A stretch of DNA of 64,000 nt. It comes from an uncultured Pelagibacteraceae bacterium. Lineage in GTDB: Bacteria; Pseudomonadota; Alphaproteobacteria; Pelagibacterales; Pelagibacteraceae. Under the pieces are notes generated by a model, which did no database searches, was not told the origin of the DNA, and was given only the letters and a program-made list of their open reading frames with translations. The stretch covers positions 1 through 64,000 of the forward strand of contig CABYZW010000001.1 of the NCBI GenBank assembly GCA_902523615.1, in the 5' to 3' direction. Shown piece by piece: positions 5,320 to 20,315 of the stretch (positions are counted from its first letter, which is position 1; the number at the start of each line of letters is the position of its first letter). The translations under genes were made by a program, and so were the position numbers.

Positions 5320-6918
5320 ATGGAAAACTTCGATTTTATAATTTTAGGAGCTGGATCTGCAGGATGTGTTTTGGCTAATAGATTGTCTGAAAATCCAAAT
5401 AATAAAGTTCTCTTGATTGAGGCTGGTGGCAAAGATAATTATCCTTGGATACACATACCAGTTGGTTATTTCAAAACGATGCATAATCCATCGGTTGATT
5501 GGTGTTATAAAACAGAACCTGATAAAACAATGAATAATCGATCAATTCGTTATCCTAGAGGGAAAACTTTAGGAGGAAGCTCAGCTATTAATGGCTTGTT
5601 ATATATTAGGGGTCAAAGTAGAGATTATGATGTTTGGCGTCAATTGGGTAATACTGGTTGGGGTTGGGATGATGTTCTTCCTTACTTTATAAAAGCTGAA
5701 AATCAAGAACGCGGTAAAGATGATTACCATGGTGTAGGCGGGCCTTTATCTGTTTCAGATCAAAGAATTCAGTTACCACTTTTAAATGAATTTCAAAATG
5801 CAGCAGAGGAATTTGGTATTCCAAAAACAAAAGATTTTAATACTGGCGATAATCACGGATGTGGATACTTTCAAGTAACTGAAAAAGATGGATTTAGGTG
5901 TAGCACTGCAGTTGGATATTTAAACCCAATTAAAAATAGAAAAAATTTAAAAATTATTACTCATGCACATATAAAGAAAATAAACTTTGAAAATAAAACT
6001 GCTAAAAATGTAGAGTACTGGCAAGAAGATGCTCTAAAAAAAGTTTCAGCTAATAAAGAGATAATACTTTCATCAGGGTCGATTGGTTCACCTCAAATTT
6101 TGCAAACTTCCGGGATAGGCAATTCAGAAAAATTAAAAGATTTAGGTATATCTATGGTGCATGAATTAAAGGGGGTTGGTGAAAATTTACAAGATCATTT
6201 AATGTTTAGACCAATTTATAAAGTTCATGGACTCAAATCATTAAATAAAAAAGTGAATAGTATAGTTGGTAAATTAATGATTGGTTTAGAATACGTATTT
6301 AATAGGAGCGGACCAATGACGATGGGTGCTAGTCAAATGTGTATGTTTGCTAAGAGTGATCCATCACTGGAATTACCCGATCTTCAATGGCACGTGCAAC
6401 CAATGAGTATGGATACCTTAGGTGCAACAAAAAACCATGATTTTCACGCTTTCACACCTACTGTATCAAATATAAGACCTACTAGTAGAGGTTATGTTAA
6501 TATTATTGATAAAGACTCAAGAACTTATGCAAAAGTAAAACTCAATTACCTTTCAACTGATCATGATCGGATGGTTGCTGCAAAAGGTTTGAAACTTACA
6601 AGAAAAATAATAATGGAGTCTGAAACTTTTAAAAAATATAAACCAGAGGAATATAGACCTGGCATAGATATTAATGATGATGAAGAACTTGTGAAAGCTG
6701 GATCAGATTATGCACAAACTATTTTTCATCCAGTTGGTACATGTAAAATGGGACAAGATGATAAGGCAGTAGTTGATGAAACTCTTAAAGTAAAGGGTTT
6801 GAATAATTTAAGAGTAATTGATGCATCGATAATGCCCAATATAACTTCAGGAAATACTAATGCACCAACTATAATGATTGCAGAAAAAGGTGCTGATATG
6901 ATTCTTTCAAATTTATGA
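5320..6918 (+). CDS. GMC-family FAD oxidoreductase (choline/alcohol dehydrogenase-like)
   Basis: N-terminal DFIILGAGSAGCVLANRLSE FAD motif, GGSSAINGLLYIRG, C-terminal HPVGTCKMG and NTNAPTIMIAEKGAD. Confidence 0.92.
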   Translation: MENFDFIILGAGSAGCVLANRLSENPNNKVLLIEAGGKDNYPWIHIPVGYFKTMHNPSVDWCYKTEPDKTMNNRSIRYPRGKTLGGSSAINGLLYIRGQSRDYDVWRQLGNTGWGWDDVLPYFIKAENQERGKDDYHGVGGPLSVSDQRIQLPLLNEFQNAAEEFGIPKTKDFNTGDNHGCGYFQVTEKDGFRCSTAVGYLNPIKNRKNLKIITHAHIKKINFENKTAKNVEYWQEDALKKVSANKEIILSSGSIGSPQILQTSGIGNSEKLKDLGISMVHELKGVGENLQDHLMFRPIYKVHGLKSLNKKVNSIVGKLMIGLEYVFNRSGPMTMGASQMCMFAKSDPSLELPDLQWHVQPMSMDTLGATKNHDFHAFTPTVSNIRPTSRGYVNIIDKDSRTYAKVKLNYLSTDHDRMVAAKGLKLTRKIIMESETFKKYKPEEYRPGIDINDDEELVKAGSDYAQTIFHPVGTCKMGQDDKAVVDETLKVKGLNNLRVIDASIMPNITSGNTNAPTIMIAEKGADMILSNL

Positions 6919-7487
6919 AATTATTAAAGACCTTTGTAATTATATTCTTTAGTCTTGTCTCATGGACTAAGGCTGATGCTATTAGAGACTTTCAGATAGA
7001 AGGAATAAGTATTGGAGATAGTGCTTTGGATTTTTATAGCATAGATACAATTACATCTTCAATAAAAAGTTCACCTTATGATGATGATGAATTTTATGAA
7101 GTTGAATTTTTTAATGACAAAGGCACTTACAAAATAATTGGACTTATATTTAAAAAATTTGATAACAAATATATTATTTATTCAATTAAGGGAATGAATT
7201 TTCTTGAATTTGGAAAATGTATTAAAGAAAAAAAATCGATAATAAAAGATATAAAAAAAGATATAAATAGCACAGATGAAAAAAATTATAGATCTAATTT
7301 TCAAAATCAATTTGGTAATAGCTATGCAATGGTGACTGATTTAGTCGTAAAAGGTGGATCAATAAGAGTTTGGTGTGATAATTTTGATAAAAGTCATGAA
7401 GAAGCAAAACATTGGGAAGATGCCATTAGTATTGACCTTTCGACAGAAGAATTTTTAATTTGGTTGGATAATAAAGCATTCAATTAG
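6915..7487 (+). CDS. Secreted two-Cys paralog family, member 1 (type I)
   Basis: Signal peptide; DFQIEGISIGDSALDFYS, KCIKEKKSI, SIRVWCDNFD; ATGA overlap with the upstream GMC gene. Confidence 0.8.
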   Translation: MKLLKTFVIIFFSLVSWTKADAIRDFQIEGISIGDSALDFYSIDTITSSIKSSPYDDDEFYEVEFFNDKGTYKIIGLIFKKFDNKYIIYSIKGMNFLEFGKCIKEKKSIIKDIKKDINSTDEKNYRSNFQNQFGNSYAMVTDLVVKGGSIRVWCDNFDKSHEEAKHWEDAISIDLSTEEFLIWLDNKAFN

Positions 7488-7560
7488 ACAAGTGCGTGAC
7501 TCAAGAACCCAGGTATGGTGGTCTGATCAATTGAGCAATCAATATTAATTTCAATTTTTA

Positions 7561-7606
7561 AGAAATCTTGACACACATAGGACACAGTGAGAAAGTGTTT
7601 GACATG
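7561..7606 (+). promoter_or_regulatory. Conserved leader element copy A upstream of paralog 2
   Basis: AGAAATCTTGACACACATAGGACACAGTGAGAAAGTG aligns with 8803-8848 at the same 43-nt distance to the ATG. Confidence 0.5.
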
Positions 7607-8173
7607 AAGAGATTACTACTAATTCTTATCTTGACGTTGAGTTTTCAATCTTGGATTAAAGCAGACGAAGTTTCTGATTTTAAATTAGAGGGAATCAGTT
7701 TAGGAGATAGTTTGTTAAACTTTTTTGATCAAAAAAAAATAATTAGATCCAAAAGAAATTTTTATAACGATGATAAATTTCTAGTAAGTTTATTACCCAC
7801 ACTTAATAATGATACTATGTACGAATATATCCAAGTTCATTACAAACGAAATGATAATAAATTTTTTGTTTATGGAATTGATGGATTGGTAGATGTTGAT
7901 ATCCAAGAATGTCTTAAAATGCAAAAGAAAATTGTAAATGAGATTTCTTCGATGTTTTCAAAACTTAAAATGAAAGGCCCATTCACATATAATCACAGCG
8001 CTGATGCAACTGGTAAAAGTACAACAACTCATTATGAGTGGCAATTTGATAAGGCTAATATTGAAGTAGTTTGTTATGATTTTGTCAAACCTATGAATTT
8101 TCCTGACGGTTTAAATGTTGCCATTGTATCGAATGAACTTCAAAAATGGTTGAACAATGAAGCATATAAATAG
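7604..8173 (+). CDS. Secreted two-Cys paralog family, member 2 (type II); start re-assigned from 7568
   Basis: MKRLLLILILTLSFQSWIKADEVSDFKLEGISLGDSLLNFF; internal ATG gives a clean signal peptide; ECLKMQKKI and VVCYDF motifs. Confidence 0.78.
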   Translation: MKRLLLILILTLSFQSWIKADEVSDFKLEGISLGDSLLNFFDQKKIIRSKRNFYNDDKFLVSLLPTLNNDTMYEYIQVHYKRNDNKFFVYGIDGLVDVDIQECLKMQKKIVNEISSMFSKLKMKGPFTYNHSADATGKSTTTHYEWQFDKANIEVVCYDFVKPMNFPDGLNVAIVSNELQKWLNNEAYK

Positions 8174-8178
8174 TTAAA

Positions 8179-8768
8179 ATGAAAAAATTTATTTTAGTTT
8201 TATTTCTATTATTGAACCTTCAATCATTAACAAAAGCTGATGATATTAAAGATTTTGAAATTGATGGTAGGTCAATAGGAAAAAGTTTATTAGAATTTTA
8301 TTCTTTAAAAGATATCAAAATTGAAGTCGAAACTGCTACTTACTATCCAAAATCTAAAAAAATGATGGTTGTTGGATTTAGATCAAAAGATGGAGATCAA
8401 TACGAAAAACATGAATTTCACATAAAAAAGAAACGATGAAAAAATATATTATTTATTCCATAAAAGGAATAATTGAACTTCAAGTAAATGATTGTCTTGC
8501 TAAAAAAAAGAAAATAGTAAATGAAATAAAAAATCAAATTTCTAACGCAAAAAGAGAAGATTACAAAGGTACTTATGGTGACTCTTTTGGAAGTTCATTT
8601 GCACATATAACAGATTTTGATTTAAAAGATGGTGGCTCAGTAAGGGTCTGGTGCTCAGAATGGGATCAAACCAATGAAAAAGTCAAAGATTATTTATATA
8701 CTGATAGTTTAGCAGTTAATCTTAGTTCAAAGGAACAGATAAATTTTGTTGATAATGAAGCTTATTGA
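8179..8768 (+). CDS. Secreted two-Cys paralog family, member 3 (type I), split into two frames (8179-8439 and 8436-8768)
   Basis: First ORF carries the signal peptide and N-terminal half, second carries KYIIYSIKGI...DCLAKKKKIV...VRVWCSEWD; -1 frame change at ATA AAA AAG. Confidence 0.72.
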
Positions 8769-8802
8769 TAAAATGCTTAAATAAATATTAAGTTTTTACC
8801 CA

Positions 8803-8848
8803 AGAAATATTGACATAAATAAACCACAGTGAGAAAATGTTATTTATG
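8803..8848 (+). promoter_or_regulatory. Conserved leader element copy B upstream of paralog 4
   Basis: AGAAATATTGACATAAATAAACCACAGTGAGAAAATG; same spacing to the ATG as copy A. Confidence 0.5.
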
Positions 8849-9430
8849 AGAACATTTTTATCAATATTTTTTTTTGCATTGATTTTTCAATCCATAGCCA
8901 AGGCTAATAATATTAAAGATTTTGTAATTGAAAATGTAAGTCTTGGGGATAGTTTATTCAAACATTATAATGAGAATGAAATTAAATTAGCTAAAACAAA
9001 AAAAATTGATTACCCAAATAAAGAATTTTATGATTTACAATTAGATGTAAATAATTTTGAAATTTGGCCAATATTATCTTTCAGTTTAAGAAAAGATGAA
9101 AAAAATCTTTTAATTCACGCTTTAGCAGGCGGAAAATTAATGGATATTGAGGATTGCAAAGTTCAAAAGAAACAAATAATTAAAGATTTAAAAAGTGTTT
9201 TTTTTTCCGGGCTAACTGAGAATAAATATAATTATACCTATAAAAATATAGCTGATGGAAAGAGTATAGCTTATATAAGTGATTTTGAATTATCTAACGG
9301 AAGTTTAAGAGTTTATTGTACGGATTGGTCAGAGATTGCAGAAAATGAAAATGGTTATGCTGATAATCTGAGATTGGAAATAGGAACAACAGAGTATTTT
9401 AATTGGTTAAATACGGCTTACAATGGTTAA
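8846..9430 (+). CDS. Secreted two-Cys paralog family, member 4 (type I); start re-assigned from 8837
   Basis: MRTFLSIFFFALIFQSIAKANNIKDFVIENVSLGDSLF...DCKVQKKQI...SLRVYCTDWS. Confidence 0.78.
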   Translation: MRTFLSIFFFALIFQSIAKANNIKDFVIENVSLGDSLFKHYNENEIKLAKTKKIDYPNKEFYDLQLDVNNFEIWPILSFSLRKDEKNLLIHALAGGKLMDIEDCKVQKKQIIKDLKSVFFSGLTENKYNYTYKNIADGKSIAYISDFELSNGSLRVYCTDWSEIAENENGYADNLRLEIGTTEYFNWLNTAYNG

Positions 9431-10028
9431 TATAAGAACATTTCTAGCAATTCTAATTTTTACAATTAATTTTCAAATTTTATGTAAAGCTGATGATATC
9501 AGTGACTTTGAGATAGAGGGAATGAGTGTTGGAAGTACTTTATTAGATCATTTTTCACTTAAAAAAATTAAATCAAGTGAGGTAAATTGGTACGATGATC
9601 TTGAAAAAAACAGATATGTTGCTTTTGCCTTTGATAGTCCAAATTTTGAAACATATGACTTTGTAGATGTTTGGACAAAATATAATGATGATCAATATTT
9701 AATAGATACTATTGCTGGTGTCATTTATTTTGATATAGACAAAAAAATAAAAGATATAAAACATTGTTATAAAGAACAAAAAATTATTGCTGATGATTTG
9801 ATGCAAATATTCAGCAAAGCTAAAAAAGAAGGACCATTAACATTAGAACATTCGGGTGATCCATCTGGAGAATCCACTTATACAGATATTTATCTTAAAC
9901 TTGATGACAAATATGAGGTTGTAATTGCTTGTTATGATTGGAGTGACAAAATATATGAAACAGAAAATAAAGAGGATCATATCTATATATCTATAAGATC
10001 TTTAGAGCTTGAAAAATGGCTAAGATAA
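9423..10028 (+). CDS. Secreted two-Cys paralog family, member 5 (type II)
   Basis: CKADDISDFEIEGMSVGSTLLDHFSLKKIKSS...HCYKEQKII...HSGDPSGESTYTDI...IACYDWSD. Confidence 0.78.
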   Translation: MVNIRTFLAILIFTINFQILCKADDISDFEIEGMSVGSTLLDHFSLKKIKSSEVNWYDDLEKNRYVAFAFDSPNFETYDFVDVWTKYNDDQYLIDTIAGVIYFDIDKKIKDIKHCYKEQKIIADDLMQIFSKAKKEGPLTLEHSGDPSGESTYTDIYLKLDDKYEVVIACYDWSDKIYETENKEDHIYISIRSLELEKWLR

Positions 10029-10037
10029 AATGTAAAT

Positions 10038-10415
10038 TTATTTTTTTAACCTAGCGGGTGACCCATACTTATTTTTCTTTTTTTTACCTTCACTAGCTAA
10101 CCAAATAATTAATGGGATTAAACCAACTATTGTTAGAGCAATTAATTGCCACCAACCAGATTTATTTACATCATGCAACCTTCTAGCTGCAGCAGCTATA
10201 CTTGGAAAAAATGTTACAGCTACTGCAAGCCAGTACATTATTCCATTCCCGCTTGTATCACCCATTGAAGCATCCCAAACACTTCCACCAAGTTCAAGTA
10301 TCAGACAAAACAAAACAAACCACCAGTATTCTGATCTTGAACCTCTACCATTAAAGTTAAAATAGTTTGAAAAACAATAAGATATTGACTGACCAAAATT
10401 CATATTATGCAACAT
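10038..10415 (-). CDS. DUF805 family membrane protein
   Basis: YFNFNGRGSRSEYWWFVLF, AAAARRLHDVNKSGWWQL are DUF805 hallmarks. Confidence 0.9.
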   Translation of the reverse strand: MLHNMNFGQSISYCFSNYFNFNGRGSRSEYWWFVLFCLILELGGSVWDASMGDTSGNGIMYWLAVAVTFFPSIAAAARRLHDVNKSGWWQLIALTIVGLIPLIIWLASEGKKKKNKYGSPARLKK

Positions 10416-11874
10416 AGAATATTTGAGCAGTTAATAAAAGATAAATGACCCCACCCCAAATTTTAATAATTTTGTTAATTCTCATCACTTTTTTTTGATT
10501 TCTTGAAATGAATTTACTAAAGGCAATACTTAAAAATACAGGGATACAACAAAAAATGTACGATAATAATATGAATCTATCCATATCAGTTAGATATTCT
10601 AATTTTGGTATGTCATCTTGAAAGACAAAATTATAAGCAATCAATGCTAGCAGAGCTATTATAGAAGTATTTAATCTTGCTTCATATTTCTCAGTAGGTA
10701 TCCAAAGTACATACCATGCAACACAAAGTATTAAAAAAACTGGTAACATTATCTTCCACACATAATGTGACCAATTTCTTTCAATTATTATTTCAATATC
10801 CAAAACGTTTTCTGAACGAGAATTAATTTTTTTGCTATAAATATCGTATGCTTCTTCATTAATGATATTATTTTTTACTAAAATACTATCTTTTTTAATT
10901 TTCCATGCTTTTAGTTTATTAGTTTCTGGATTTATAAATTTTTCTAAATTTAGAAATACTCCTTCTTCTGGAGTAAGCAATGTAAAGTTTCTTGTTTCAA
11001 TAAAGTTTCCAACTCCAGTTTTAAATCTTACGACAAGTTTTTGAGTATCAAAAGGAAAATCCTCAAAATCAAATGATTGTCTAAAAAAACCTACTCCCTT
11101 TTCAGTTCTTAATGTTCTTAACTCATTATTATCATAAGTTATTTGAAAAACTGGATTAACTAGTTTCTCTTTATTTTTCAAACCTTCTCTTACATCAGCA
11201 TCATATTTAAATTCTTGAAGCTCAACCGAAGATAAGGGCCAAATTAAATAATCTTTTATTTCATCACATATATTATGTAACTGATCATCTAATAATTCGC
11301 TATTATTTATAAAAAGTTTTTTTAAATCATTTCTTTCATTTGTTAATGAAGCGTTAAATGACATTTCCAAAATGCCTTTTGTTGTATCAATATTTTGAAT
11401 ACTTAAAATTTCAAAAGTAGATAATTTAAAATTGTTCAATTTATATTTTCTAGATGGGATAGTAATAGTTTTTCCATTAATAAGTTCAAAATTTATATTC
11501 CCAGTTAAATAAGTTAATTTTTTTAGATCTTGATCATTTAAAGAAGAGAGATCATATGAATTAATTTCTTTTATCACGGTTTCAGAAGAAATTAAATTTT
11601 CATTATCAAAAAATGAAAACCCTACTATAGGATAATTTTCTTTATTTCTATTTAAGATAATTTTTTTTTGTTCTTTATCCCATTTAAAATCAAAAAAAAC
11701 CCCAGCATCATTTCGATTTTCATTAAAATGAAAATATTTTTCAGGAATGTTTTCGTAAAGATGGTTTATCAATTCACTTCCACATTTTTTTTCTTCAGCA
11801 AAAGATTTGAAGGTAATTAAAAATAATGCTGTTATTAAAAAAACTGCGTTTTTTAATAAATTTTTAAGTTTCAT
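10405..11874 (-). CDS. Pentameric ligand-gated ion channel (Cys-loop receptor superfamily, prokaryotic type) with extra N-terminal domain
   Basis: Signal peptide; Pro-loop FDFEDFPFDTQKL; M1 HYVWKIMLPVFLILCVAWYVLWI; M2-M3 TEKYEARLNTSIIALLALIAYNFVFQDDIPKLEYLTDMDRFILLSYIF; C-terminal M4. Confidence 0.85.
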   Translation of the reverse strand: MKLKNLLKNAVFLITALFLITFKSFAEEKKCGSELINHLYENIPEKYFHFNENRNDAGVFFDFKWDKEQKKIILNRNKENYPIVGFSFFDNENLISSETVIKEINSYDLSSLNDQDLKKLTYLTGNINFELINGKTITIPSRKYKLNNFKLSTFEILSIQNIDTTKGILEMSFNASLTNERNDLKKLFINNSELLDDQLHNICDEIKDYLIWPLSSVELQEFKYDADVREGLKNKEKLVNPVFQITYDNNELRTLRTEKGVGFFRQSFDFEDFPFDTQKLVVRFKTGVGNFIETRNFTLLTPEEGVFLNLEKFINPETNKLKAWKIKKDSILVKNNIINEEAYDIYSKKINSRSENVLDIEIIIERNWSHYVWKIMLPVFLILCVAWYVLWIPTEKYEARLNTSIIALLALIAYNFVFQDDIPKLEYLTDMDRFILLSYIFCCIPVFLSIAFSKFISRNQKKVMRINKIIKIWGGVIYLLLTAQIFYVA

Positions 11875-11926: not shown

Positions 11927-12391
11927 ATGGCTAAAATCAGAAAAACAGGATCAATTGAAAATGGTATTATGCAAGTTTTAAAGACTTTAAATGAAAAAGA
12001 AATTCAAGAAACTATTGGGAAGAGCTCTTCTTATTTAAGAAAATGTAGTGATCCTTCTCAACAACAACAATTGGATCATAACGACTCTGTAAAGCTTGAT
12101 ATTGCTTGTGTAAAAAAAGGTAAAGCACCCCATTTATGTTTGGCTCACGAATATATAATTTCAAATATTGCAGAAAATTTAGAGGAACATAAACAAAACG
12201 ATATTGATTCAATGTTAGTTAAATCAACCATTCTTCATGGAAAACTTTTTGAAGTTGTTAAAGAAGCAGAAGACCCAAAAAGTGAAAAGGGAGTACAAAT
12301 ATCTCAATTAGAAAAAAAAGAAATAATGGAAGCTATTAAAAATTTAGAGGATAAAATAATGAAAATTAAAATTACAGTAGATCAAAAATAA
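11927..12391 (+). CDS. Hypothetical protein, possibly phage-regulator/HTH-like
   Basis: 154 aa; KEIQETIGKSSSYLRKCSDPSQQQQLDHNDSVKLDIACVKKG resembles prophage CII/YdaS-type regulatory proteins; weak. Confidence 0.5.
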   Translation: MAKIRKTGSIENGIMQVLKTLNEKEIQETIGKSSSYLRKCSDPSQQQQLDHNDSVKLDIACVKKGKAPHLCLAHEYIISNIAENLEEHKQNDIDSMLVKSTILHGKLFEVVKEAEDPKSEKGVQISQLEKKEIMEAIKNLEDKIMKIKITVDQK

Positions 12392-12393
12392 CT

Positions 12394-13683
12394 TTAGACA
12401 TTTTCAAACTTATCCCACTCGCCATCCTCATTATAGTCGTAAGCGATAACATCTGTTTCACCATCATCATCTTCATCAATATCTGCTTCATCTGGATTAC
12501 CATTGTTATTAGTATCAATTAAGATTATCTCAAAATTGTTATTTTCATTTTTATCAATTGCAACAGCCTCAATAGTGCCATCCTCATTCATATCTACATA
12601 ACCAATTTCATAAATTCCATTGTTGTTTTCATCAATTAACCACGCATCAATTACGCCATTTTTATTATGGTCTATTTCTTTTGCATTTGATAAATCAATT
12701 GAACCTTTTTCAGAAGTTTTCTTTTTCTTTTTTTTTATCCAGGTATTACCTTTGTCTTTTTTTTTAATATATTTACTTTTCTTTTTTTTAATTGGTTTAG
12801 GTTTTTCATTTAAAAAAGCAATTACATCATCAACAGCTATGGCAAAATTTAAACCTTCTCCTTTATCAGTAAAAGTGTTTACTCCAATTAATTCTTTATC
12901 TTTGTTAAATAAGGGGCCACCTGAATTACCAGGATTTATGCTAGCATCTGTTTGGATTACATTTGCTTTATGACTAGATCCTTTATATCTCCAGTCATAA
13001 TCAGGTCTTATTTGACTTACAAATCCAGGTGAGAAAGTCCATAAATGACCATGTGGGTGTCCCATAGCAAATACATTTTGTCCAGGTCTAACTTTATTAA
13101 ACTTACCAAATCTCACAGGCTTTATTTTTAAAGGCAAACCTTCAACTTTAAGTAAGGCTAAATCTTTTGTTTTGTTAACTTTTATTAATTTAGCAGAGTA
13201 AGAATCAATTTGATTGATAAGGAATTCTTCATTAACCATTTTTTTGGGCATTATCCAAACACTTAGAGAGTCTGCATCATCAATAACGTGCCAATTTGTA
13301 ATTATCTTTAATTCTTCTTTTTCTTTAATAACAAATCCAGATCCCATTCCTACAACTCTATTTTTTTTTAAATTTCCTATGAAGACGACACTTTCGATAT
13401 AATAATTATAAATATCTTCTGCTCCTTTATACTTAGGCTGACTTTTATTCTTATTTTTATTTTTTATTTCTTGTTCTTTTTCTGAATATGCTTCATTTAA
13501 ATTCTTTACATTATCTAAAAGATTTTCTGCATTCTTAGTATCAACAAGATTAGTATCATTTACATTGTAAGAAGCTTGAGAAACTACATTGGATTTATTT
13601 ATATTTCGAATGTCAAAAGCATTTGTGCTAGATATAAATAAAAAATTAATAACAAAAAAAATTTTTAAAAATTTAATTTTCAT
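12394..13683 (-). CDS. Secreted trypsin-like serine protease (S1C/DegP-like) with C-terminal Asp/Asn-rich Ca-binding-type repeats
   Basis: Signal peptide; triad regions TNWHVID, KTKDLALLKV, NPGNSGGPLF; TWIKKKKKK linker; DHNKNGVIDAWLIDENNNGIYEIGYVDMNEDGTIEA... repeats. Confidence 0.87.
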   Translation of the reverse strand: MKIKFLKIFFVINFLFISSTNAFDIRNINKSNVVSQASYNVNDTNLVDTKNAENLLDNVKNLNEAYSEKEQEIKNKNKNKSQPKYKGAEDIYNYYIESVVFIGNLKKNRVVGMGSGFVIKEKEELKIITNWHVIDDADSLSVWIMPKKMVNEEFLINQIDSYSAKLIKVNKTKDLALLKVEGLPLKIKPVRFGKFNKVRPGQNVFAMGHPHGHLWTFSPGFVSQIRPDYDWRYKGSSHKANVIQTDASINPGNSGGPLFNKDKELIGVNTFTDKGEGLNFAIAVDDVIAFLNEKPKPIKKKKSKYIKKKDKGNTWIKKKKKKTSEKGSIDLSNAKEIDHNKNGVIDAWLIDENNNGIYEIGYVDMNEDGTIEAVAIDKNENNNFEIILIDTNNNGNPDEADIDEDDDGETDVIAYDYNEDGEWDKFENV

Positions 13684-15155
13684 TTTTTAGTAATAAAAAC
13701 AAAATCACCACCATTATGACCCCAGTGCCACATACCATGTCCAAACGGTTGTTGTCTTTTGTTTGAATGAGCAAGGATTAAATCATCTCTTATTTTTAGT
13801 AAATTTACAGCTTTTTTATTTTGTTCTAAAGATTTAATAAATGTATACCCAAATAATGAATGATTACCTTTATTAGTGTCATCTACAGGTTGATTGGTTC
13901 CAGATGCTAAAACAATTCTAGCACGAGTTTTAAGATATTTTTGAAATAATAAATTTTCCTGACTATAATTATCTGAACCTTTTTGAGAAACTGCGAAATA
14001 ACAAGAATCCACCATTACTGCTAAATGATGTGCTGGGATTTTCTTTTCAAGATAAACTTCAATATCACTTATATTTATCCAATCACCAAAACCGAATTCT
14101 TTTTCAGCATCAGTAGGTATCCAAAATGATCGATCTTCAATAATTTCACCATGACCAGCATAGTAAATGAGAACATAATCATTATCAGTTGTCACTTTTG
14201 ATAAATCATTAAATGCTTTAAATATTTGTTTATAGTTTCCATCAATAACAGTGGTCACATCAAAATTATACTTTTTATCGAGTATTTTAGCTATTGCTTT
14301 AACATCATTTTTTGGAGATGTGAGGGAAGTCCATTTAACATATTTAGAATTTCCAATTAATAAAGCGTAATATTTACCTGTAACTTTTAAATTTAAGTTT
14401 TTTTCATTATTAGAATTGTCTTGATCAAAAATTTTATTACTCGCTATTAAATTTTCTCTTTCTTTTTTAAAATAAGCTAAATGAGTGTTAGCCAATTTTT
14501 TGGTTCCATAAAATTCTAATTTAATATCATTACCATTCCAATGTGTTCCTTTTCCTTCACCAAAATCATTTTCATCTTTAAAAGCCATCAGATACGAAAA
14601 TGACTCCATCATTTTTTTATTTCCACAATCAAAAATAATATCCGTGGCTAGTCTTGACCTAGTTGGCACAAACTCAACATCAAGTGAGCATCTGTTTTTT
14701 TTGTTTTCAAAATAAGCAAATCCTTCACCATTTTTATATGATTGTTTTCCCTCAAAATTAAATTTTTCTGATTGTTTATTATTCTTAATAAAACCATAGA
14801 AATATTCTGCATTTTGATTTTCATCATTTGGAATAATTTCTGCAATAAAATAAACATCGGCTTTAGGAAGGTTTTCTATTGTTTTATGCTTTTTTAATTT
14901 TTCTTTTATATCTTGGACCTTTTCTTTGCTTTTTTTAGTAATCCAAGATTTAGACTCCTTAATTTTTTCTTTTAGCTTTTTTTTATTTTGTTTAACTTTT
15001 TTTTTCTTTATCCAAGTTGATGTTTTTTTTTCTACTTCTTTTACTTCCTCAACTTTTTCAGATTTATCTTTTTTTTTAATCCATGAAGTATCAGATTGAG
15101 CAAAAGTTATTGCTCCTAGAAAAATTACAACAATTAGTAATAACTTTTTAATCAT
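13680..15155 (-). CDS. Secreted caspase-like (C14 p20 / metacaspase-type) protease with WIKKK-rich N-terminal region
   Basis: YYALLIGNSKY...LIYYAGHGEI (His) ... AVMVDSCYFA (Cys); signal peptide; SWIKKKD, TWIKKKKV, SWITKKSKE; 4-nt overlap with the protease gene. Confidence 0.87.
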   Translation of the reverse strand: MIKKLLLIVVIFLGAITFAQSDTSWIKKKDKSEKVEEVKEVEKKTSTWIKKKKVKQNKKKLKEKIKESKSWITKKSKEKVQDIKEKLKKHKTIENLPKADVYFIAEIIPNDENQNAEYFYGFIKNNKQSEKFNFEGKQSYKNGEGFAYFENKKNRCSLDVEFVPTRSRLATDIIFDCGNKKMMESFSYLMAFKDENDFGEGKGTHWNGNDIKLEFYGTKKLANTHLAYFKKERENLIASNKIFDQDNSNNEKNLNLKVTGKYYALLIGNSKYVKWTSLTSPKNDVKAIAKILDKKYNFDVTTVIDGNYKQIFKAFNDLSKVTTDNDYVLIYYAGHGEIIEDRSFWIPTDAEKEFGFGDWINISDIEVYLEKKIPAHHLAVMVDSCYFAVSQKGSDNYSQENLLFQKYLKTRARIVLASGTNQPVDDTNKGNHSLFGYTFIKSLEQNKKAVNLLKIRDDLILAHSNKRQQPFGHGMWHWGHNGGDFVFITKK

Positions 15156-15198: not shown

Positions 15199-15399
15199 TT
15201 ACTTAGGTAAACGCCCACCACTATCAAGACAATCCTTAAGAGAATCAAAGCTTATAAAATTTTTTGTTTGTTTGTAATACTGACTTCCTTTTTTATGACA
15301 AATTCCAGTATTTGATTTTTTTACATTTGGATTAGATTGCTGAATATTATCACATGAGATTAAAAGTAATGAAAAAATGATTATATAAAAAAATTTCAA
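15199..15399 (-). CDS. Small lipoprotein
   Basis: 66 aa; lipobox-like LLLISC. Confidence 0.6.
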   Translation of the reverse strand: MKFFYIIIFSLLLISCDNIQQSNPNVKKSNTGICHKKGSQYYKQTKNFISFDSLKDCLDSGGRLPK

Positions 15400-15767
15400 A
15401 ACAATTTTCCTTCAGCATTTAATTCAGGCAAATCTTTAACCGTTATTTTTTGCATAATGCAAATTATTTTATTATTTTTATTTTTATATTCACCAGAATT
15501 ACGGTCTATTTTATTAGATCCAACACTAATATAATTTTCAGTATAAGCGTGAATGATGTGTTTATACTTAAATTTTTTTGTTCTAACGTTATAGTTACTC
15601 TCTAAATAAGTGCCAGTTAATCTATAATATCTATCATCGCATTTTAAATATGTATAAATTTCAGCGGTATGAGCAAAAGTTCCGATTGAAGTTAAAAAAA
15701 CTAAACTTGCTAAAAACTTACTATAAGAAAAAATCAGTCTTGAAATTGAAGAAAAAATAATTTTCAT
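15396..15767 (-). CDS. Small secreted hypothetical protein; start re-assigned from 15821
   Basis: MKIIFSSISRLIFSYSKFLASLVFLTSIGTFAHTAEIYTYLKCDDRYYRL; the upstream ORF extension crosses a hairpin. Confidence 0.6.
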   Translation of the reverse strand: MKIIFSSISRLIFSYSKFLASLVFLTSIGTFAHTAEIYTYLKCDDRYYRLTGTYLESNYNVRTKKFKYKHIIHAYTENYISVGSNKIDRNSGEYKNKNNKIICIMQKITVKDLPELNAEGKLF

Positions 15768-15780
15768 AAATAAAACCTCG

Positions 15781-15804
15781 TCTCCCCTATTTTCATAGGG
15801 GAGA
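15781..15804 (-). terminator. Intercistronic hairpin (attenuator/partial terminator candidate)
   Basis: TCTCCCCTATTTTCATAGGGGAGA inverted repeat between two minus-strand genes. Confidence 0.65.
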
Positions 15805-15813
15805 CAATAAAGA

Positions 15814-16026
15814 TTAGCCATCCTCCTTATTAATATTAATTAAAACTGTTCCAAGAACACCAAAGATAATTGGTGAAAATCTAGAAGCAGCCCCCATAAA
15901 TGGAGTAAGGTTGACACCCATCCATGATAAAACAAAGTCTGCAGCTGCAAATACTAGAAGTAAAGTTCCAAGAACTTGCAACACAGAAAAGCTGTCTGTT
16001 TTAGTTTTGATATTTACTTTTGTCAT
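15814..16026 (-). CDS. Small membrane protein (70 aa)
   Basis: Two hydrophobic segments, SD-like aaaggagaaaaa upstream (minus strand). Confidence 0.6.
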   Translation of the reverse strand: MTKVNIKTKTDSFSVLQVLGTLLLVFAAADFVLSWMGVNLTPFMGAASRFSPIIFGVLGTVLININKEDG

Positions 16027-16085
16027 TTTTTCTCCTTTTGTTGTTGTTTGTTATGATGCAAATCTAATTTTTTTTTAGAAAAAAT

Positions 16086-16156
16086 CTTGTCCAGCTTTTA
16101 AAAAATTTTTGGACAATGAATAAATTTGTCCAAAAAAAATTTTGATCTTGGACAAG
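16086..16156. promoter_or_regulatory. Divergent promoter/operator with four TTGTCCA half-sites
   Basis: CTTGTCCAG (16086), TTGGACAAT (16109), TTTGTCCA (16125), CTTGGACAAG (16147) in two inverted pairs between divergent genes. Confidence 0.7.
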
Positions 16157-16187
16157 AAATTTTTATTAAAAGATTTAAATATGAGTT

Positions 16188-16451
16188 ATGAAAAAAATTA
16201 TTAATATTATAATAATAATATTCTTATCTGGATGCACAACATCGTCTTGGACACACAAATCTAACAATAATTCGAATTTGGAATTTGATAGTGGATTTTG
16301 TAGATCTTATGCAAATGTAAGTGAGCCAACATACATATGCAAAGATCCTTTGATGTGTTCACCAGAAGAACTAAGCACAGCCATAATTGCCCTTGGCCAA
16401 AATAAAGCTGCTTATGATCTATGTATGTACAAAAAGGGCTATAAACAATAA
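16188..16451 (+). CDS. Small Cys-containing lipoprotein
   Basis: MKKIINIIIIIFLSGCTTSSW lipobox; 87 aa. Confidence 0.65.
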   Translation: MKKIINIIIIIFLSGCTTSSWTHKSNNNSNLEFDSGFCRSYANVSEPTYICKDPLMCSPEELSTAIIALGQNKAAYDLCMYKKGYKQ

Positions 16452-16480: not shown

Positions 16481-17977
16481 ATGATCAAGTTTAATTTTTT
16501 TAAAAGACTGAGGGAAATATTCAAAGGAAAAAAAATGACTTTTAATTTTGAAAATGTAAAAGTAAAGCAAATAGAGGATAAAATTAATCTTAAATCGACT
16601 GCTACAAATAATGGTAAAAACAATCTTCCAAGAGCTTCATCAGAAACTTTTTCCAATTGTGAAAATGAAGCTATAATTTCTGCTGATGAATTTAGAAATA
16701 GCCAGGTTTCAAAAGCTGTAGATTATTTAAATTCTATTAAAGGAAAAATCATTGATAGCACTGCTAAGTTAGGTCAAAAACATTTTTTCATTGATGAGCT
16801 TAAAAATAAGATTGAGAGAACTTTAACAACAGCAGAAAGCAAACTATCAAATTTAAAAGATGCTTATCAAACTCAAGATAACGAAGTAAAAAATTTTAGA
16901 TTAGAAAACAATTTAAATAGAGAGCCTAAATCATTAACAATGATGAATATTATTGTTGGAATAGCAGTGATAGCTGTTTTATTCATAATCGAGTTAAGAG
17001 TTAATGGAAATCTATTGGCACCTGCAATGGCAAGTGGTCAAAAGGAAGGTATGGCGATTGCAGCAGCAGTTGCAGGACTTAACGTATTTGTATCTTTTGC
17101 AGTTGGTTTTTATGCATTAAAAAATTTTCATCATGTTCAAATCATGAGAAGAAATATTTCAAAAGTTGGTTTAACAATTTATTTAATTTTTATAGTTTAT
17201 TTAAATTGGGCTCTTGGTGCTTATAGAGCAATTCATGAGGCCACTGGAGCAAATTTAATGGATGTTATAACAGGAAATGACACAGCAAGTTCTATAGCAG
17301 AAGGAAGTGCACCAATTCCATGGACCGTAGATTTAACATTTACATCTTTAATATTAGTATTTGTTGGAATTGGATTTGCAATTGGGTCTTTAATTGATGG
17401 ATACTTGTTTAATGATCCTTATCCAGGCTATGGTTCTGTTGGTAAAGATAGAAACGAAAATAAAAAAGAAATTAATAGAATAAGAGAACACCTTTCATCT
17501 GAAATAAGATCTATTTTTAACAATGAAACTAAAAAGACAAGTGAAAATAGAGATATGATTATAAGTGGTGTACTTAGAAAAGACTGGATACCAAACATCA
17601 CTTCATTAGAGAATACATTTGAAGGATACAGAAGATTTTCTGAACAAATTAGCGAAGCTTTAGACCATACTGTAGGGGAATATAGATCTATAAACTCTAT
17701 GTTCAGAACAGAGGCAGAGCCTAAGTATTGGAGAGATAGTAATGGAAAAGTAAAGACTAAATATTATGAATTAAGCGATGATAAAAAAGATCCTAATAAA
17801 GTATTTAGAGATTTTGCAATTCTTTATTTGAACAAAGATCAAATAGAAAAGAAAATTGAAGATTATCAAAATAAAATACAAGAAGAGGCTAATGAATTTA
17901 TTAATAATATAAATTCTTATAGTGATGAAACTAATAAAAAAATAGAGGAAATTAGATCAAAGTATGCAATTTCATAA
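16481..17977 (+). CDS. Membrane protein with about four TM segments flanked by coiled-coil-like regions
   Basis: 498 aa; TM stretches MMNIIVGIAVIAVLFIIE, AIAAAVAGLNVFVSFAVGFYAL, VGLTIYLIFIVYLNWALGAY, FTSLILVFVGIGFAIGSLIDGYLF; helical charged N- and C-terminal parts. Confidence 0.6.
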   Translation: MIKFNFFKRLREIFKGKKMTFNFENVKVKQIEDKINLKSTATNNGKNNLPRASSETFSNCENEAIISADEFRNSQVSKAVDYLNSIKGKIIDSTAKLGQKHFFIDELKNKIERTLTTAESKLSNLKDAYQTQDNEVKNFRLENNLNREPKSLTMMNIIVGIAVIAVLFIIELRVNGNLLAPAMASGQKEGMAIAAAVAGLNVFVSFAVGFYALKNFHHVQIMRRNISKVGLTIYLIFIVYLNWALGAYRAIHEATGANLMDVITGNDTASSIAEGSAPIPWTVDLTFTSLILVFVGIGFAIGSLIDGYLFNDPYPGYGSVGKDRNENKKEINRIREHLSSEIRSIFNNETKKTSENRDMIISGVLRKDWIPNITSLENTFEGYRRFSEQISEALDHTVGEYRSINSMFRTEAEPKYWRDSNGKVKTKYYELSDDKKDPNKVFRDFAILYLNKDQIEKKIEDYQNKIQEEANEFINNINSYSDETNKKIEEIRSKYAIS

Positions 17978-18884
17978 AGTTAAATTTATTATTTCATTAT
18001 TGTTATCTTTACTTTTTGTAAATAACTTAGCTTATGCAAAGAAATTTCCAGCAGGATATCCTGAATGTTGGCAGGATACAAAGAATCCCATTGTGCTTGA
18101 TCCAAAAAGCTCTAATCAATTTTGTCCTTTAAATTCAAAAGTAGGACATAGATTTTTCTTAGTTGATTTTACCTCACCATTAGCTCAAGCACAGATTGAT
18201 TGGATTTCAGGAAGAATATTTGGGTTGACATTAATTAAAGAAACACCTCCCTACCAAAAAGTTTCATTTATGAAAATAGATGATACGGCACCACAATCTC
18301 AAAAAATTAGTTATTCAAAATGTAGATTTAAAACTGGAAATAAATCAAAGTTTGAAGGAGAGGCAACAAATACTGGTTGCGAGGGTGAAAAACAAATAAA
18401 AGAAGTTCATAAAGGGTGGGTTGCACTTACCTCAAAGTTTGAAAACGAGTTTTTACATTTAAATCATAAGGAAGGAAAAAGAAGTCTCATTTTTGAATAC
18501 TTATTTCATATTTTAAGGGAGTCTAAAACTGATTTTACTTCAGAATATCCGGAGAGAGAACTGATAATTGTTTCAGATTTAATGCAACACTCAAAAAGAT
18601 TTTCTTTTTATAGTCACTGCAAAACTAATCTTGAATTAGCAAAACCTAATAAATGCAGATCTTTTGAAAATTTATTAAAAAAATCAAAAGTTAAAAGTTA
18701 CATTGATGACAGAAAACCAAAAAAAGAAACTTTAAGTAACCTAAAAGTAACTGTGCTTTATATAAATCATGATTATGAAACTAGAGATGGTTTATCTAGT
18801 TCGCTGGTAGCGCTTTGGGAAGATCTCTTTAAATATATTGGAATTGAAAATTACGAAATAATTAAACAATTAGACATTAAATAA
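17964..18884 (+). CDS. Secreted hypothetical protein, vWA-like Rossmannoid features
   Basis: Signal peptide; HRFFLVDFTSPL...ELIIVSDLMQHS...KVTVLYINHD spacing resembles a vWA fold; overlaps both neighbours. Confidence 0.5.
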   Translation: MQFHKVKFIISLLLSLLFVNNLAYAKKFPAGYPECWQDTKNPIVLDPKSSNQFCPLNSKVGHRFFLVDFTSPLAQAQIDWISGRIFGLTLIKETPPYQKVSFMKIDDTAPQSQKISYSKCRFKTGNKSKFEGEATNTGCEGEKQIKEVHKGWVALTSKFENEFLHLNHKEGKRSLIFEYLFHILRESKTDFTSEYPERELIIVSDLMQHSKRFSFYSHCKTNLELAKPNKCRSFENLLKKSKVKSYIDDRKPKKETLSNLKVTVLYINHDYETRDGLSSSLVALWEDLFKYIGIENYEIIKQLDIK

Positions 18885-19699
18885 TGTTTAGAGATCCATC
18901 ATTTATTTATTTAGCAACTATTTTACCTCCAATTCTATTAGGGATAGCTGTCTGGAAATCTGACAGATTTCCTGAGCCAGGTAAATTTTTAATTTCTTCA
19001 TTCCTATTAGGAATTTCAATCTATTTACCATTAGATTTTTTAATAATGATAACTGAAGATCATCTAGCAAGATTTATTGGTTTAAATCTAGATGGTGATA
19101 ATACAAGTTATAGAGGTGGTGAAAGAGCATTTATGCATTTTTTCAGAGCTGCATTTTTAGAAGAGGGTATAAAATTTGCACTACTTATTTTTATCTGTGT
19201 GAGACTTTCTGATTTAAATGAGCCAATGGATGCTATTGTATATGGAGCTGCCATAGGTTTAGGTTATGCAGCTATGGAAAATATTCCTTATTTAAATACA
19301 GGAGACCCTCAAACTGCTTGGACTATGACGGCTGTTAAAGCTAGATATTATCCTCTGATGATGCATTTAGGTTTCGGGGTAATAATGGGGTGGTTACTGA
19401 GTCAAAATTTATTCGAAGAGAGAAATAATTTTAAAAGAAAATTAATGCTAATACTATCTTTGTTAATACCTGTTTTATTTCATGGAACATACAATTATCT
19501 AGGAGCATATGATGTTTGGCCAATTTTAACAACATTAATGGTAATTGGAATTATTTATTATTATAGAAGAGATCAATTAAAAAAAATTACCGAGTCTGTT
19601 GATAAGGCAAGAGTTGAAAATCTAGATGTGCTATATACGTATTTGATAACTTTATTTTTTGTTTCAGTAGTAGTTTTATCAGCAATTTTTGTTAACTAA
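18884..19699 (+). CDS. PrsW-family glutamic-type intramembrane protease
   Basis: FLEEGIKFALLIF (EExxK), GLGYAAMENIPY, MMHLGFGVIMGW, LLIPVLFHGTYNY; 1-nt overlap with upstream gene (TAATG). Confidence 0.85.
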   Translation: MFRDPSFIYLATILPPILLGIAVWKSDRFPEPGKFLISSFLLGISIYLPLDFLIMITEDHLARFIGLNLDGDNTSYRGGERAFMHFFRAAFLEEGIKFALLIFICVRLSDLNEPMDAIVYGAAIGLGYAAMENIPYLNTGDPQTAWTMTAVKARYYPLMMHLGFGVIMGWLLSQNLFEERNNFKRKLMLILSLLIPVLFHGTYNYLGAYDVWPILTTLMVIGIIYYYRRDQLKKITESVDKARVENLDVLYTYLITLFFVSVVVLSAIFVN

Positions 19700-19727: not shown

Positions 19728-20315
19728 ATGAAAAAAGTATTAATTTTTATCAGTATATTTTTTCTGAATTCTTCAGTTTTAGCAGATAATATAAAAGACT
19801 TTGATATTGATGGAATTAGTATTGGAGAGAGTTTATTAAAGCACACAAGTCAAAATTTAATAAATAGTAAAACTAAAAGCTACTATCCTAACAATAATAA
19901 ATATTACATGATAGAGTTTAATTCTAATGAGTTAAAATTTTTAGAGACTTATTCACATATAGGCATACATTTAAAAAAAGATGATAAAAAATTTTTAGTT
20001 GCTTCAATTAAAGGTATTTTACCTTACAAAAAAAATTTTGAGGCATGTTTGGACCAAAAAAAAATAATTGTCGAAAGTATTAAAGAAACACTTTCGAATC
20101 CTAAAGAACAAAAATACACAAATGACTATGATAATTTATATGGTATGAGTAAAGCTTATATTTCTGATTTTAAAGTTAAAGATGGCTTTATTAGAATTTG
20201 GTGTACTAATTGGGATAAAAAAATTGAAAATGAAAATGGATGGGAGGATACTCTTAACGTTGATTTATCAAATCAAGTTTTTTTAGATTGGTTAAATACC
20301 GAAGCATATAAATAA
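19728..20315 (+). CDS. Secreted two-Cys paralog family, orphan member 6 (type I)
   Basis: ADNIKDFDIDGISIGESLLKH...ACLDQKKII...SKAYISDFKVKDGFIRIWCTNWD...WLNTEAYK. Confidence 0.8.
   Translation: MKKVLIFISIFFLNSSVLADNIKDFDIDGISIGESLLKHTSQNLINSKTKSYYPNNNKYYMIEFNSNELKFLETYSHIGIHLKKDDKKFLVASIKGILPYKKNFEACLDQKKIIVESIKETLSNPKEQKYTNDYDNLYGMSKAYISDFKVKDGFIRIWCTNWDKKIENENGWEDTLNVDLSNQVFLDWLNTEAYK

Follow-up and report, generated by a model that had tools for sequence, protein, structure and literature searches.

A conserved paired operator between divergent caspase and PrsW gene arms in SAR11 and its probable CII-like regulator

We analyzed a 64,000-nucleotide stretch of DNA (hereafter, the window) from a SAR11 genome, in which two divergently oriented gene arms face each other across an intergenic region. 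The minus arm starts with a gene for a 70-aa small membrane protein (15814-16026, -), whose homologue adjoins the operator described below in related genomes. It continues with genes for a 141-aa secreted-type protein (15396-15821, -), a 66-aa lipoprotein (15199-15399, -), a caspase-domain protein (13680-15155, -; PF00656) and a trypsin-like protease (12394-13683, -; PF13365). The plus arm starts with a gene for an 87-aa lipoprotein (16188-16451, +), followed by genes for a 498-aa membrane/coiled-coil protein (16481-17977, +), a 306-aa vWA-like protein (17964-18884, +; the label is that of the initial annotation, and there was no Pfam hit) and a PrsW-family intramembrane protease (18884-19699, +; PF13367, 102 bits). 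Beyond the trypsin gene lies a gene for a 154-aa CII-like regulator (11927-12391, +), the proposed operator-binding protein. On its other side is a pentameric ligand-gated ion channel-like gene (10405-11874, -; PF02932, 26.5 bits against a cut-off of 28.1), which is a conserved neighbor of the CII-like gene.

Two further features of the surroundings may be mentioned. The caspase and trypsin proteins (12394-15155) have in common a lysine-rich motif, TWIKKKKK, which follows the signal peptide or precedes the C-terminal part. The locus is also flanked by tandem arrays of secreted-type paralogues of about 195 aa (DIxDFEIEGISIGDSLL...) at 6915-10028 and 19728-20315. Such arrays occur in relatives as well (L078, 8924-15085; L080, 1740-6298; about ten copies in G357), and the copy tested had no Pfam hit.

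The intergenic region between the arms (161 bp, 21% G+C) contains four TTGTCCA half-sites, at 16087-16093 (+), 16110-16116 (-), 16126-16132 (+) and 16149-16155 (-), with start-to-start spacings of 23, 16 and 23 bp. They form two perfect inverted repeats, TTGTCCA-N16-TGGACAA (7-16-7, 30 bp each), 39 bp apart in register. We propose pair A (16087-16116) as the site of the leftward promoter, serving the minus arm, and pair B (16126-16155) as the site of the rightward promoter, serving the plus arm. The sites and their grouping in two inverted pairs had been described in an initial annotation of this DNA, and all of them were confirmed.

The same annotation held that the repeated word was improbable by chance, and this was borne out for the arrangement and not for the word. 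The window has 11 copies of bare TTGTCCA, where 8.4 are expected, and 11 copies were reached in 19 of 100 shuffles. The word is thus at chance frequency, close to the commonness that the annotation had named as counting against its proposal. Four half-sites in a region of this size and composition have a Poisson P of about 8e-9, for a word picked post hoc. Two 7-bp inverted repeats of identical arm and spacer length lying within 100 bp (arms with at least three G/C) were found at one place in the window and in none of 300 simulations by a first-order Markov model of the window. The exact TTGTCCA-N16-TGGACAA repeat was present in this region only in the 796-kb draft genome to which the window belongs (67% complete), along with three 2-mismatch copies at other places. 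That the arrangement arose by chance or as a simple repeat artefact would suit the ordinary frequency of the 7-mer itself; against the simulations, the conservation in relatives and the co-occurrence with one gene family, it is vanishingly improbable.

Relatives were identified through the 498-aa plus-arm protein. In two of them, SAG-MED29 and AG-911-G13, the homologous divergent region carries the half-sites and has the 70-aa membrane protein gene on its opposite side. Alignment of 11 relatives showed that the outer half-sites of pairs A and B (CTTGTCCA and TTGGACAAG) are invariant, that the inner half-sites are mostly retained and that the gap between the inner half-sites varies. G114 has a 23/16/23 layout identical to that of the window; depending on the genome the pairs are 39, 38 or 35 bp apart, and in the main locus of G357 about 390 bp apart. 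What is fixed across relatives is the N16 spacer within a pair and a distance of N20 to the -10 box. Conservation of the sites in relatives with the same gene arms, a check named beforehand, was therefore confirmed by the alignment. The element is operator-like, non-random and conserved between these two arms among relatives, and the co-regulation of the arms first suggested by the initial annotation is likely.

Seven relatives contain a second, distant target, a single pair located between divergent genes for 79- and 76-aa membrane proteins. In G114 it is about 69 kb from the main locus (C1, 247003 versus 316322), and in G357 it is a 2-mismatch copy of the operator. The layout at this target is N20-TATATT-N6-ATG, with N20-TATATT on both sides of the pair in 5 of the 7 genomes, and one pair serves two divergent promoters. 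The 79-aa protein had strong matches in only four of 201 genomes, all of them operator-bearing. In G254, a homologue of its gene is located in the main locus behind an operator of its own, again as N20-TATATT-N6-ATG. The window's own genome, an incomplete draft, yielded no second target.

These observations bear on how the four half-sites are organized. The initial annotation viewed them as one cooperative operator; they are operator-like, being non-random and conserved, but the case for a single four-site unit is weakened by the varying distance between pairs and the single pair at the distant target. An obligatory four-site operator was rejected on these grounds. Since the pairs in G357 are some 390 bp apart and the distant target has one pair only, one pair per promoter appears to be enough, and cooperativity among four sites is then not required.

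The initial annotation also stated that the locus has no obvious regulator gene. This is not supported, as the locus contains the conserved CII-like gene at 11927-12391 (+). The assignment of this gene is based on a weak PF06892 match, on matches of its family and on co-occurrence with the operator. The window protein scored 22.6 bits against Pfam PF06892 (Phage_CP76), under the cut-off of 26, and phage 186 CII itself scored 163.6 bits. Among relatives, 17 of 29 matched PF06892 at E<=0.1 (best E, 1.3e-8) and 14 of 29 matched PHROG_101, annotated as 'CII-like transcriptional activator' (best, 1.9e-9). At 50% identity, 44 CII-like proteins fall into nine clades, and a clade-1 member, L075, reached 27.0 bits with PF06892, above the cut-off. 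Compared by hhalign with 11 aligned phage CII proteins, the family profile gave a weak match (probability 1.4%, P 0.036). In both hhalign runs, each with low scores, the helix-turn-helix (HTH) was aligned without a shift, and V36/Q37 of 186 CII faced S34/S35 of the window protein. V36 and Q37 are positions of DNA-binding mutants of 186 CII (PMC7708051). The S34/S35 stretch varies among clades that have different operator words. Homology to 186 CII is thus likely, as judged by these profile matches, and remote. An AlphaFold model built from three sequences was poor (pLDDT 52), and no related chain was found among PDB chains searched with the family profile. Searches of phages (tblastn) and viral contigs found no relatives of the protein, and in the literature searched neither this locus nor CII-like proteins of SAR11 were the subject of a paper. 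No Cox/Apl-like, CI or integrase gene of a P2/186 lysogeny module was present among the Pfam-scanned genes of the locus.

The neighborhoods of CII-like genes in other clades also have recurrent members. In clade 3 (L061-L066; for example, L062, 7785-10406) the CII-like gene is directly followed by genes for a PrsW protease and a pentameric-channel-like protein in apparent operon order. Those of clades 1 and 5 are near PD-(D/E)XK/Cas4-like nucleases (L093, 6235-9617; L069, 10463-14036; L075, 8355-9152); near those of clade 5, a large protein matching the Castor/Pollux ion-channel domain is also encoded.

The distribution of the gene follows that of the operator. In a set of 399 genomes used for both searches, close homologues of the CII-like protein (>240 bits) occurred in 11 genomes and the exact operator, sought as TTGTCC-N18-GGACAA, in 11, with 10 in common. 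Fisher's test gave 4.8e-18, an optimistic P given that the genomes are related and the counts not independent. A reversed control pattern gave eight single sites, in other genomes. In G254, the eleventh genome with the gene, both pairs are present at 1-2 mismatches and a third site occurs as well. In G095 (draft 79% complete) the distant operator was present and the CII-like gene was not found.

We also searched the intergenic DNA around each CII-like gene for conserved inverted repeats without presetting a word. Clade 1 has CCGTAGG-N16-CCTACGG in 7 of 7 members, and AGTGAA-N16-TTCACT was found in 6 of 6 members of clade 5 and 4 of 5 of clade 7. The N16 register recurs in both members of clade 6 (2/2) and in singleton words, CTGAA-N16-TTCAG (L070, twice) and ACCCCAG-N16-CTGGGGT (L063). 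In clade 3 (L061-L066) the TTGTCCA word is everted, TTGGACAAA-N21-TTTGTCCAA, over the promoter of the CII-like gene. This everted element could also be read as mixed pairs, ATGTGAA-N16-TGGACAA and TTGTCCA-N16-TTCATTT. The search further returned a conserved N8 repeat in clade 1 and an N19 repeat in clade 7, and it missed clade 4 itself because the divergent L067/L068 and truncated contigs were included. In a spacer histogram that included coding DNA, N16 (28) was not singled out from N12 and N14 (29 each); N16 stood out only in the clade-wise search for conserved repeats in intergenic DNA. CGTAGG-N16-CCTACG was present in exactly 7 of the 399 genomes, which are the clade-1 genomes, and in none elsewhere; it always adjoins the gene. 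In several clades, then, different CII-like proteins are paired with different words in one fixed geometry.

This matching bears on the possibility that the sites are bound by some other regulator, with its gene elsewhere, and that the CII-like gene is a linked passenger. Binding by the CII-like protein is deduced from sequence, G095 carries the site without a detected gene, and in clade 1 the operator is simply next to the gene. However, the words change with the CII clade within the same geometry even where the neighboring genes differ entirely. Because a passenger would not predict clade-matched words, we consider this explanation quite unlikely. The regulator of the operator is probably the CII-like gene of the locus.

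The position of the operator relative to candidate promoters is also regular. We scored -10-like boxes (5/6 or better to TATAAT) by their offset, counted outward from the end of the half-site. They peak at offset 20 (window's clade, 15 of 48 arms; clade 1, 5 of 14; clade 5, 4 of 28), a peak that rests in part on near-identical promoters; most other offsets have few such boxes. In the window's clade, the mean match is 3.75 at offset 20 and does not exceed 2.8 at any other. The seven clade-1 arms that face the homologue of the 70-aa gene all start with TATA, and clade 1 has a further peak at offsets 7 and 10 on the other side, facing its own CII-like gene. No -35 box could be recognized at the operator arms. 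Three clades share this promoter plan, with no good -35 and with the -10 box at a fixed offset of 20 from a half-site.

In the window, the outer half-site of pair A is followed at 20 bp by TAGATT (16061-16066, -), the predicted -10 box of the leftward promoter; there is no -35 box, and the predicted start is at about 16054. The outer half-site of pair B is followed at the same distance by TAAATA (16176-16181, +), the predicted -10 box of the rightward promoter, and homologous promoters are laid out alike. The start of the rightward promoter is predicted at or beside the ATG at 16188. Many arms, including this one, have a -10 box followed by 6 nt and ATG, which suggests leaderless mRNAs. A terminator or RNA hairpin was rejected, as the sites are upstream of the predicted starts.

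A half-site at a set distance from a -10 box might alternatively be recognized by a special sigma factor as part of the promoter, since TTGGACAA occurs at such a fixed distance. However, TTGGAC is 22 bp from the -10 box, too long for an ordinary -35/-10 spacer, and a -35 element of a special sigma factor was rejected on this spacing. In addition, the inner half-site and N16 are conserved as well, and the word follows the CII clade. We regard this explanation as very improbable.

The geometry can be compared with that of known CII systems. In the annotated GenBank record of phage 186, from which the geometry of pE was taken, the promoter is annotated to end 35 bp beyond the CII site, ATGTTTG-N13-CAAACAT. 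Like the window operator, this site consists of inverted 7-bp half-sites approximately two helical turns apart, and its proximal half-site, judged by the annotated promoter end, is about 19-21 bp from the -10 region, as in the window promoters. The two proteins are of similar length (169 aa in 186, 154 aa in the window), and the HTH of 186 CII has a putative counterpart in the window protein. The spacers differ (N16, 23 bp center to center, in the window; N13, 20 bp, in 186), as does the half-site word. Unlike 186, the window locus has no phage lysogeny genes, its promoters are paired and divergent, its targets are membrane, protease and caspase genes, and the similarity of the two proteins is remote. 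CII-like activators of Vibrio P2-like phages probably belong to the same protein family as the window protein; in three of these phages (L134, L137 and L138), ATTGAGT-N20-ACTCAAT, with an N20 spacer and another word, lies over the start of the CII gene. Spacer length may therefore be specific to CII subfamilies (N20 in Vibrio phages, N13 in 186). Lambda CII, which binds direct-repeat sites, shares the name and the role proposed for the window protein, that of activating promoters with a poor -35. The CII proteins of 186 and lambda are unrelated (PMC7708051). The operator is a real, conserved element of activator type and a variant of the 186-CII system rather than a new category.

From the computed sites, conservation, co-occurrence, cross-clade geometry and N20 spacing, we infer binding, activation over repression, and leaderless starts. 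In the model that we consider probable, the 30-bp operator is present twice, once per divergent promoter; both promoters lack a -35 box, and the CII-like protein of the locus binds the operators to activate both arms and the distant gene pair. By analogy, the protein (11927-12391) would bind each pair as a dimer of dimers or a tetramer. The outer half-site would cover the -35 position (approximately -39 to -33), with the inner half-site some 23 bp further upstream. Bound protein would touch RNA polymerase at the -35 position and bring it to the -10 box, which lies exactly 20 bp downstream of the outer half-site. Both arms, caspase/protease and lipoprotein/PrsW, would be switched on together, and the distant divergent pair of small membrane-protein genes in trans.

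The same protein might instead bind here and repress both arms. In clades 1, 3 and 7 just 9-10 bp or so separate an operator from a -10-like box of the clade's own CII-like gene, which suggests negative autoregulation there, and the family may thus include repression among its roles. In contrast, the pairs discussed here lie wholly upstream of -32, at promoters with no recognizable -35 and a fixed N20, as at the activated pE promoter of 186, so repression of the arms appears unlikely.

Proteolysis could add a feedback to this scheme. Phage 186 CII is a substrate of two proteases, FtsH and the intramembrane RseP, which degrade it (PMC7708051). Because an intramembrane protease thus acts on 186 CII, and because PrsW is encoded in the regulated arm and directly beside the clade-3 CII-like gene, proteolytic feedback on the CII-like protein via PrsW is plausible.

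If the model is correct, a regulon, comprising regulator, operator, promoter spacing and targets, can be read from sequence alone, and the caspase/PrsW/ion-channel locus would gain a defined switch. As sister clades keep the geometry and change the word, the recognition code of a poorly characterized activator family becomes testable. SAR11 bacteria are some of the commonest cells in the ocean and are considered poor in regulators. As a tentative and rather doubtful extension, they may possess a diversified set of chromosomal CII-like activators with differing operators in one geometry, each controlling a membrane-surveillance module (an ion channel, an intramembrane protease, secreted proteases or a nuclease). 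The stability of each activator might be tuned by the membrane protease under its control, and the whole would then act as a switch triggered by stress or infection.
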